From NCBI GenBank assembly GCA_018660685.1, contig JABJJW010000014.1, positions 62,001 to 126,000 of the forward strand: a stretch of DNA of 64,000 bases, read 5' to 3'. Under the pieces are notes generated by a model. That model did not search any database, had not been told where the DNA came from, and worked only from the letters and a program-made list of their open reading frames with translations. The DNA is from Flavobacteriales bacterium. GTDB taxonomy: Bacteria; Bacteroidota; Bacteroidia; Flavobacteriales_G; Salibacteraceae. The first letter of the stretch is position 1, and every line of letters starts with the position of its first letter. Positions 16,906-20,240 of the stretch are shown in pieces. The translations under genes and the position numbers were made by a program.

Positions 16906-17724
16906 TTATTCCTTAGAGCCTTCTTTGTTTTCACCTTCAGACGATTCTTCCTTGGACGATTTCTCCTCTGAAGCCTCTGGTGAGGCCTCTTCAGTAGTTT
17001 CAGTAGCAGCTTCCGATGTCTCTTTAGCGGCTTCAACAACTTCTTCAGTTGCTTCTGCAGTCTCTTCAACTGCCTCTGTCGCTTCCGCGACTTCTTCGAC
17101 AACCTCAGTAGCAGATTCTACAACTTCCTCAGCAGATTCAGTCACTTCTTCAACAGCTTCGACCACTTCTTCAACAACCTCAGCAGCAGCTTCAACTGTT
17201 TCTTCCGCGGTCGCTTCAGTTGCATCTTCCACTTCTGTAGCTGGCTCTTCTGCCACTACAGCAGCTGTTTCAACCACATTCTCAGCTTTCGGTTCAGAAC
17301 CTCCAGTTCCTCGACGAGATCGACGAGTCTTCTTGGTTGCTGCTTTCTTTTCTGAAGTATAAATCTCATTGAAGTCGACTAGCTCCATCATGCACATTTC
17401 AGCGGAGTCACCTTGTCGGAATCCTGTCTTGATGATCCGAGTGTATCCACCTGGACGATCACCAACCTTAGGTCCTACTTCACGGAACAACTCAGATACA
17501 GCATCCTTATCCTTCAGCTTTCGGAAAGCCAATCTTCGGGAGTGAGTAGTATCATCCTTTGATTTTGTGATCAATGGCTCCACATAACCTCTCAAAGCTT
17601 TAGCCTTGGCTACCGTAGTAGTGATGCGCTTATGTTGAATAAGCGAAGAAGCCATATTCGCCATCATCGCACTTCTATGCGAAGATGTACGGCTAAGCTG
17701 GTTGATTTTGTTTCGATTTCTCAT
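16906..17724 (-). CDS. rplQ: 50S ribosomal protein L17 with long acidic tail
   Basis: The first ~130 residues are a normal L17 ('[20 protein letters not shown]', '[19 protein letters not shown]'), a large-subunit protein near the tunnel exit. A short basic stretch ('KKTRRSRRG', ~131-139) follows. Then comes a tail of about 125 residues made almost only of Glu, Ala, Val, Thr and Ser in a quasi-repeated 'VEEVVEA/ATEAVEE' pattern, ending '[10 protein letters not shown]'. The total of 272 residues is far above the usual 120-165. The tail is in frame, with no sign of frameshift. It may form a long charged helix reaching from the ribosome surface. Last gene of the operon. Confidence 0.95.
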
Positions 17725-17745: not shown

Positions 17746-18738
17746 TTATTCGTTCTCCAACATGTACTTAGACACGTTCATCCCGAAATTCAATCCTTTG
17801 GTTTGAACCAAATCCTCAAGTTCTGTCAATGACTTCTTACCGAAGTTTCTGAACTTAAGAAGGTCATTCTTTTCATAAGTAACCAGCTCACCTATAGTCT
17901 CAACATCCGCTGCTTTCAAACAATTCAAAGCACGAACAGAAAGATCCATATCAACAAGCTTGCTTTTAAGAAGCTGACGCATGTGAAGCGTGTTCTCATC
18001 TAATTCTTGCTCAGCCTTCTTCTCAACTTGATCCAATGTGATTCGCTCATCACTGAATAGCATGAAGTGGTGAATTAGAATTTTAGCTGCTTCCTTCAAG
18101 GCATCTTTAGGATGGATTGAACCATCAGTCTCGATGTCAAAAATCAGCTTTTCGTAGTCAGTTTTTTGCTCAACACGATAGTTCTCTATAGTGTATCGTA
18201 CGTTTCTGATTGGAGTAAAAACAGAGTCCATGAAGATTGTACCAAGAGCAGCGTTTGAGCTCTTGTTCTCTTCAGATGGAACATATCCTCTTCCTTTTCC
18301 AATAGTCAGTTCCATTTCAAGGCTCACACCTTTATCCATGTTACAGATCACGTGATCTGGATTCAACACTTGGAATGAAGTTGTGAATTTCCCGATGTCA
18401 CCAGCGGTGAACTTATCGGTTCCTCCTACTTTGATGCGAACTTTTTCAGAATCTTCTTCCTTAATCTGCTGCTTGAAGCGAACTTCTTTAAGGTTAAGAA
18501 CAATCTCAGTTACATCTTCAATAACTCCTTTGATGGTACTGAATTCGTGATCTACGCCTTCAACTTTAATTGAAGTGATAGCGAACCCTTCAAGTGACGA
18601 GAGAAGAATTCTTCTCAAGGCATTCCCGATGGTGATACCATAACCTGGTTCAAGTGGACGGAATTCGAATTGACCTTTGAAGTCATCCGCTTGAAGCATG
18701 ATGACCTTATCTGGTCTTTGAAAATCTAAAATTGCCAT
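17746..18738 (-). CDS. rpoA: RNA polymerase alpha subunit
   Basis: RpoA nucleates RNA polymerase assembly and contacts activators and UP elements. The N-terminal domain has '[22 protein letters not shown]'; the C-terminal domain (~245-320) has '[18 protein letters not shown]' and '[13 protein letters not shown]'. I chose the ATG at 18738, where the protein begins '[12 protein letters not shown]' as in other Bacteroidota. An in-frame ATG at 18753 would add only 'MKKSN' and lies against the stem-loop between rpsD and rpoA. The two starts are 15 nt apart, so initiation could be sensitive to that structure. Confidence 0.96.
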
Positions 18739-18758
18739 ATTACTTTTCTTCATTTTTG

Positions 18759-18826
18759 ATTGGGGTTAAGTGTCTTCGTTTTTGTACTTGAAGAGGTGCA
18801 CTTAAACATTTTTGCTTGTCCCCAAT
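18759..18826 (-). promoter_or_regulatory. Nested stem-loop between rpsD and rpoA
   Basis: Read on the minus strand, three perfect helices nest: ATTGGGG (18826-18820) with CCCCAAT (18765-18759), TTAAGTG (18805-18799) with CACTTAA (18772-18766), and TCTTC (18794-18790) with GAAGA (18777-18773). A 14-nt bulge separates the first two on the 5' side and a CACC bulge the second and third; the 3' side is continuous. The element fills most of the otherwise unusually long 102-nt gap in a tightly packed operon and ends 20 nt before the rpoA ATG. There is no T tail, so it is not a plain terminator. Candidate ribosomal-protein-binding leader or processing site. Confidence 0.6.
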
Positions 18827-18840
18827 GGTGTTTTTCTTTA

Positions 18841-19446
18841 TTACTTAGAGTACAATTCTACAATCAGTTGCTCCTTGATATTTTCAGGGATCTGCTCTCT
18901 AGTTGGTGGAACGATGAATGTTCCAGAAAGCGCGTCTTTATCAAACTCCAACCAAGCAAAGCTTGTAGAGCTCATTGCAACTGAATTCGTGATCGCTTCA
19001 AGAGACTTTGACTTCTCTCGAACGGAAACCTTATCACCAGCTCTGAGTTGGTAGGAAGGAATATTCACGATTTTTCCATTAACAGTAACGTGTCTGTGGC
19101 CAACCAACTGACGTGCTCCCCTTCTTGTCGGAGATATACCCAATCTAAAGACTGTGTTGTCTAGTCTTGACTCACAAAGCATAAGTAAGTTCTCCCCTGT
19201 AATTCCCTTTCTACGAGATGCCTCGCCAAATAAATTAGAGAATTGACGTTCGAGAATACCGTAGGTATACTTTGCCTTCTGCTTTTCTTGGAGCTGGACA
19301 GCGTATTCCGACTGCTTCATTCTTCGCTTGTTCGGTCCATGTTGACCCGGGCCATAGTTCTTTCGTTCTAAAGCCTTGTCAGGTCCGAAAATTGGATCCT
19401 TAAATCTCCTAGCGATTTTTGATTTTGGTCCTCTGTATCTTGCCAT
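18841..19446 (-). CDS. rpsD: 30S ribosomal protein S4
   Basis: S4 is a primary 16S rRNA-binding protein that starts small-subunit assembly, and in several bacteria it represses its own operon. The 201-residue protein has the N-terminal '[15 protein letters not shown]' and the S4 RNA-binding domain (~95-155, '[31 protein letters not shown]'). It lacks the zinc-binding cysteines of some S4 forms. A nested stem-loop lies immediately downstream, before rpoA. Confidence 0.98.
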
Positions 19447-19458
19447 TTCTTGCTCGTA

Positions 19459-19839
19459 TTAAACTCTTCTTCTTTTAGGTGGTCTGCATCCATTGTGAGG
19501 TAGCGGAGTAACATCGACAATCTCTGATACTTCGATCCCACTGTTTGAGATGCTTCTAATCGCACTCTCGCGACCTGATCCAGGGCCTTTAACGAAAACC
19601 TTGACTTTTCTAAGTCCGGCATCGTGAGCCACCTTGGCACAGTCTTGAGCTGCTTGCTGAGCTGCGTAAGGAGTGTTCTTCTTAGATCCGCGGAAACCCA
19701 TCTTTCCAGCGGACGACCAAGAAATCACATCGCCACCGACATTCGTCAGTGAGATAATGATGTTGTTGAACGAAGCGTGTATGTGCGCTTCTCCTACTGC
19801 TTCAACTTTTACTTTCTTTTTTTTCTGAGTCTTCGCCAT
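19459..19839 (-). CDS. rpsK: 30S ribosomal protein S11
   Basis: S11 forms part of the 30S platform near the E-site mRNA path. The 126-residue protein has '[15 protein letters not shown]', '[17 protein letters not shown]' and the conserved C-terminus '[18 protein letters not shown]'. It lies between rpsM (23 nt) and rpsD (12 nt). Confidence 0.98.
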
Positions 19840-19862: not shown

Positions 19863-20240
19863 TTACTTAACTGCCTTCTTCTTGTTGGCAACTGTCTTTC
19901 TCTTTCCTTTTCTGGTACGGCTGTTATTCTTGGTACGTTGACCTCGAAGTGGCAATCCAGTTCTGTGTCGAACACCTCTATAGCATCCGATATCCATCAA
20001 TCGTTTGATGTTAAGCTGAGTTTCTGAACGAAGAGCCCCTTCAACCTTAAGGTTGTCGTTAATTTGGCCTCTTACTCGAGCCAACTCATCATCGTCCCAC
20101 TCACTCACCTTCTTGTCAAAATCAATCTCACAAACAGTTAAAATCTCTGCTGCCGTAGATGATCCGATTCCATAGATGTACGTAAGTCCAATAACACCTC
20201 TCTTATTTCTTGGTAAGTCTATACCTGCTATACGAGCCAT
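19863..20240 (-). CDS. rpsM: 30S ribosomal protein S13
   Basis: S13 sits in the 30S head and contacts the P-site tRNA and 50S bridge. The 125-residue protein begins '[19 protein letters not shown]', has the helix-two-turn-helix '[14 protein letters not shown]', '[22 protein letters not shown]', and a lysine-rich tail. The gap to rpmJ is 10 nt. Confidence 0.98.

Follow-up and report, generated by a model that had tools for sequence, protein, structure and literature searches.

Results

Gene organization and a hairpin in the rpsD–rpoA gap

The window analyzed here is a 64,000-nt stretch of contig JABJJW010000014.1 from a Flavobacteriales bacterium (assembly GCA_018660685.1). It carries rpsM, rpsK, rpsD, rpoA, and rplQ on the minus strand (Table 1), with carA-like and eno-like ORFs after rplQ on the same strand. 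The rplQ product has 272 residues, in which L17 is followed by an acidic C-terminal tail of about 150 residues rich in Glu, Ala, and Val. rpsD and rpoA are 102 nt apart, a distance correctly given in the first-pass annotation of this DNA; the ORFs and aligned starts confirm it, with the conserved rpoA start at 18738 on the minus strand. An in-frame ATG at 18753 occurs in this genome alone among the 15 members aligned first.

The annotation had also placed a hairpin at 18759–18826 in this gap, read on the minus strand as the operon is. Its minimum-free-energy fold has exactly the three nested helices described there, and every unpaired stretch lies on the 5′ side. The hairpin lacks a T tail, and a terminator scan found no terminator. 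The free energy of the hairpin is −15.7 kcal/mol, while shuffled sequences average −8.35 (z −2.79), and 3 of 200 shuffles were equally stable; its stability in the window by itself is thus only modestly above chance. The source genome holds a single copy of the 18759–18826 stretch and a single match of the covariance model built later.

Table 1. Genes and parts of the conserved fold, listed along the minus strand of the window
Feature	Coordinates	Strand	Basis and comments
rpsM	19863–20240	−	ORF
rpsK	19459–19839	−	ORF
rpsD (ribosomal protein S4), upstream of the element	18841–19446	−	ORF; query for relatives
P1 5′ strand AUUGGGGACAAG	18815–18826	−	Pairs with 18759–18770; two-sided changes at 9/12 P1 pairs (82 rows)
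Internal loop, 5′ side CAAAAA (CCAAAG in other families)	18809–18814	−	6 nt in 80/81 members
P2 5′ strand UGUUUAAGUGC	18798–18808	−	Two-sided changes at 11/11 P2 pairs in relatives
Apical loop ACCUCUUCAA with invariant UCUUC	18788–18797	−	UCUUC in 81/81 members
P2 3′ strand GUACAAAAACG	18777–18787	−	Covariation
Internal loop, 3′ side AAGACA (GCGCAA in other families)	18771–18776	−	6 nt in 81/81 members
P1 3′ strand CUUAACCCCAAU	18759–18770	−	Covariation
A-rich linker CAAAAA, P1 to tail	18753–18758	−	5–7 nt (YAAAAN) in 81/81 members
Tail UGAAGA, complementary to loop 18789–18794 (UCUUCA); proposed pseudoknot	18747–18752	−	Comparison
rpoA (RNA polymerase alpha subunit)	17746–18738	−	ORF; start alignment; ATG at 18736–18738
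rplQ (ribosomal protein L17), after rpoA	16906–17724	−	ORF

Covariation defines a conserved two-stem fold

rpsD was present in 58 of 60 relatives with one match each, and rpoA adjoined it in all 58. Fifteen loci, the window included, have a gap of 94–104 nt with a similar hairpin; these carriers comprise 11 of the 13 in the source genus and four from three other genera of the family. The gaps of the other 43 loci measure 16–87 nt and are free of the hairpin. Alignment of the 15 loci yielded a common fold consisting of a 12-bp stem (P1), an internal loop of 6–7 nt per side, a second stem (P2), and an apical loop in which a run of pyrimidines is invariant. RNAalifold recovered both stems unaided, and in an alignment made from sequence only 14 pairs of these first 15 loci show two-sided changes, which none of 500 shuffles equaled.

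Across 82 aligned hairpins, one of which is a chance hit, two-sided changes occur at 20 of 23 pairs. The covariation score of this alignment is 0.453, against 0.046–0.087 for slid controls, and none of 500 shuffles reached it on any of five measures. The 82 rows were fitted to a covariance model and are therefore biased towards the model fold, but the slid controls and the sequence-only alignment concur. Comparing covarying pairs among relatives, a check of the kind proposed in the first-pass annotation, revealed strong two-sided change and supports a conserved, covarying RNA just 5′ of rpoA. With covariation this strong, we consider the element to be a genuine structured RNA. A chance hairpin or terminator, which the modest stability in the window (z −2.8) would allow, is refuted by the same covariation, and we give it practically no weight.

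The conserved fold differs in part from the minimum-energy fold. Of the three helices drawn in the annotation, the outer one (AUUGGGG/CCCCAAU) is conserved, whereas the inner two (UUUAAGUG/CACUUAA and CUUC/GAAG) have hardly any two-sided changes and are disrupted in many relatives, so covariation rules them out as conserved structure. The fold in the window comprises a 12-bp P1, a 6 × 6 internal loop, an 11-bp P2, and a 10-nt apical loop, and these lengths are nearly fixed among members (P1 12/12, internal loop 6/6, P2 11/11, apical loop 9–12 nt). Judged from the alignments, the internal loop is the most conserved part of the element. It reads CARAAA/AAGACA inside the source genus and, with few variants, CCAAAG/GCGCAA outside it, the latter in the two other families described below and in three members of the source family. 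A short ORF starting at the AUGUUU conserved in the source genus was ruled out, as the ATG is missing in most members.

The element lies in the rpsD–rpoA gap in three families

Two covariance models (R1 and R2, the latter for the later searches) were built from the hairpin alone, with the tail left out. R1 detected the element in 15 of the 42 source-order genomes and also matched two further families, labeled f21 and f56; by its 16S signature f56 may be Weeksellaceae. R2 found the element in 58 of 150 f21 genomes and in 8 of 296 genomes of the order of f56, all eight within f56. Matches were also obtained in 17 of 395 genomes of a class sample, two of them by chance, and in 5 of 296 genomes of a phylum sample. 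Many Bacteroidia are without the element, and because the large searches scored 12–17 candidates per genome, the absences in them are soft. Salibacteraceae bacterium JJ.5 and several Flavobacteriales assemblies are among the named records that carry the element.

Among the matches whose loci were read, 81 are genuine, in three families of Bacteroidia, and all 81 lie between rpsD and rpoA. This constant position supports the element, since the models contain only the hairpin. Three matches away from rpsD and rpoA were set aside as chance hits (L161, a second copy in one genome, and the weak L162 and L163), as were pattern matches in viral contigs and unrelated genomes, which had no rpsD or rpoA adjoining.

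A conserved tail is complementary to the apical loop

The element reaches further than the hairpin at 18759–18826, to the UGAAGA at 18747–18752. This tail, which can pair with the apical loop, had been overlooked in the first-pass annotation and is the most informative part of the element. GAAG lies 4–10 nt before the rpoA ATG in 81 of 81 carriers, following a linker of 5–7 nt that is mostly UAAAAA or UAAAAC, whereas none of 43 non-carriers has GAAG within the last 25 nt. The rpsD tree requires at least seven changes of element state on supported branches, and tail and hairpin were gained or lost together in all 7 independent pairs (p 0.016). In the window, GAAGA precedes 6 of 46 long ORFs by chance.

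Loop and tail are complementary over at least 5 bp in all 81 members and over 6 bp in 69. The sixth pair is U-A in 64 members, A-U in four, and G-U in one, with a mismatch in 12 of the 81, and the fifth is U-G in one member; the genomes with these changes are related, and two genera account for five of the six. The changes at the sixth pair were better than those of all 5000 shuffles. Because the 5-bp core is invariant, covariation cannot prove a pseudoknot, but the comparison strongly suggests that UCUUC in the loop pairs with GAAGA near the rpoA start to form one.

Spacing ties the element to rpoA

The distance from the rpsD stop codon to P1 varies from 8 to 121 nt among members, whereas the rpoA ATG stays at a fixed distance. 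rpoA follows the element directly in 81 of 81 members, and rplQ was detected in 68 of the 69 loci tested. Six members (L121, L139, L140, L154, L155, and L157) have a TANNTTTGC box between rpsD and the element that resembles the −7 element of Bacteroidota promoters, against 0.2 expected. Terminator-like hairpins of the GGAGCC...GGCTCC type occur in the same place in L075, L110, L119, L123, L124, and L130, that of L075 being followed by a T run, suggesting that the two sides are partly separate transcripts. The loci with either feature belong to some f21 genomes. Based on the fixed spacing to rpoA, the free spacing to rpsD, and these hairpins and promoter-like boxes, we therefore regard the element as an rpoA leader, and the lock on rpoA rather than rpsD supports the earlier suggestion that it could tune rpoA and rplQ, for which it is probably regulatory.

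Known RNA families do not account for the element

No Rfam 15 family matched anywhere in the window at the gathering score, and relaxing the threshold to E up to 5 in 18400–19100 gave two irrelevant eukaryotic chance matches only. The first-pass annotation had looked to cmscan for membership in a ribosomal leader family of Rfam; no such family matched the element, either in the window or at nine carrier loci. Alpha_RBS (RF00140) in particular gave no match at E up to 5 in 18400–19100 or at E up to 1 in the nine carrier loci. The model of the S4-Flavobacteria leader (RF03141) matches the rpsK–rpsD gap of relatives and never this element. It exceeds its cut-off upstream of rpsD in 7 of 42 genomes of the source order, in sister genera and none in the source genus. 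In that order, the element (15/42) and the RF03141 leader (7/42) never occur in one genome; in f21 and f56, at least 42 of 66 carriers also have the RF03141 core upstream of rpsD, some of them confirmed by cmscan. The idea that the element replaces the S4 leader therefore fits the source order and fails in f21 and f56, where both coexist.

One further locus, L016, has in its 98-nt rpsK–rpsD gap (1403–1500, about 100 nt before rpsD) a strong hairpin of −26.8 kcal/mol, which is not RF03141 and may be another S4 leader. Resemblance to rRNA was looked for by searching the motifs in the 16S of E. coli and relatives and in E. coli 23S and by running the model on rRNA loci. No resemblance was found, so rRNA mimicry gave no clue to a ligand.

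Discussion

A proposed pseudoknot leader of rpoA and rplQ

From this comparison, we think it fairly probable that the element is a cis-regulatory pseudoknot leader that gates translation of rpoA and rplQ and is bound by a protein encoded in the operon. The apical loop UCUUC and the tail GAAGA would form the pseudoknot over the translation-initiation region of rpoA. A linker of 5–7 nt is too short for a straight hairpin of 23 bp plus the internal loop. With so short a linker and with P1 and P2 (12 and 11 bp) each about one helical turn long, either the hairpin would fold back at the internal loop or P1 would open. Since P1 and P2 have almost the same length, folding back would place the P2 loop next to the base of P1, and in either case the internal loop would serve as the hinge. 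A protein at the internal loop may stabilize the pseudoknot and thereby lower initiation at rpoA and rplQ. Thus, beside the observed structure, its position, its constant distance to rpoA, and the co-occurrence of loop and tail, we infer the fold-back bend, the effect on translation, and the protein ligand with its identity. L17 is the first candidate because every known r-leader ligand is the product of a regulated gene (PMC7247131) and rplQ is the sole ribosomal gene consistently found downstream; S4 comes next because of the precedent in E. coli (PMC10931766). A more specific version, in which the element is a new class of RNA acting as the control point of alpha itself, with a folded-back loop docking on the rpoA start and switched by L17 or alpha, is possible but in our judgment doubtful.

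Three other explanations bear on the ligand and on the step controlled. The element could work free of any ligand by breaking the translational coupling between rpsD and rpoA and holding initiation at rpoA and rplQ at a fixed, lower rate. Most relatives have gaps of 16–50 nt, where coupling is possible, as against about 94–205 nt in carriers, and the initiation region is covered by structure, both as such a block would predict; the near-invariant 6 × 6 internal loop, however, exceeds what a passive block needs, and we hold this reading unlikely. Equally unlikely, and also contained within the favored reading as its S4 variant, is a second S4 operator, by which S4 would keep rpoA and rplQ in step while RF03141 controls rpsD. 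In other bacteria S4 regulates alpha operons, and E. coli uses a pseudoknot for this; the mutual exclusion of the two RNAs in the source order would agree with this. However, an element 3′ of rpsD gives no feedback on S4 synthesis via translation, and the two RNAs that coexist in f21 and f56 look unrelated. An RNA processing or stability site parting the rpsD mRNA from the rpoA–rplQ mRNA would suit a place between two cistrons, and in some members the gap also contains a terminator-like hairpin or a promoter-like box. We consider it improbable, since the element keeps its distance to the rpoA start but not to rpsD, and cleavage needs neither the loop–tail complementarity with its linked gain and loss nor an invariant internal loop.

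The pseudoknot leader that we favor would be a candidate for independent control of an RNA polymerase subunit outside the phylum of E. coli and, if true, would link the supply of polymerase and ribosomes through one RNA switch. The comparison also adds a new RNA family that is well supported and whose compact design appears to be a pseudoknot, and internal operon gaps before genes for non-ribosomal proteins may hide further leaders.

Comparison with known leaders of ribosomal operons

One of the closest known systems is Alpha_RBS (RF00140) of E. coli, which likewise lies in the alpha operon; its pseudoknot takes in the ribosome-binding region of the gene that follows (PMC10931766), as the one proposed here would. 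There, however, the S4-bound pseudoknot precedes rpsM and covers its start, and rpoA is unaffected: S4 control does not extend to the alpha cistron, which is reportedly regulated on its own (PMC10931766). The element described here precedes rpoA instead. The S4-Flavobacteria leader (RF03141; Eckert and Weinberg 2020, PMC7247131) shares the phylum and the operon and is also a small hairpin leader, but it is 33 nt long, differs in sequence and fold, and lies upstream of rpsD, whereas the element follows this gene. The two are different RNAs at what would be different control points of one operon.

The r-leader of L17 in Actino- and Proteobacteria (PMC7247131) would share its ligand with the element if the rule holds that the ligand is the only ribosomal gene controlled. 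It sits directly upstream of rplQ in those other phyla (PMC7247131), and no Rfam model matched here. The L17 downstream element (RF01708) is likewise a structured RNA associated with the alpha operon and perhaps with L17, but it lies after rplQ and in Firmicutes only, whereas the present element stands before rpoA. A candidate precedent for a structured RNA named for an RNA polymerase subunit gene is the Lacto-rpoB motif (RF01709) of Lactobacillales, whose tie to rpoB we take from its name alone; it gave no Rfam match here. In the literature searched, we found no rpoA leader in Bacteroidota. The element has what r-leaders generally have, a covarying secondary structure and a consistent place upstream of a gene set that holds rplQ, and the first gene after it is rpoA, not a ribosomal gene. 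It thus represents a family of RNAs of the ribosomal-operon leader type that has apparently not been described before and that, on the comparative evidence, is unusual in its placement before an RNA polymerase gene and in the predicted pairing of its loop with the start site.
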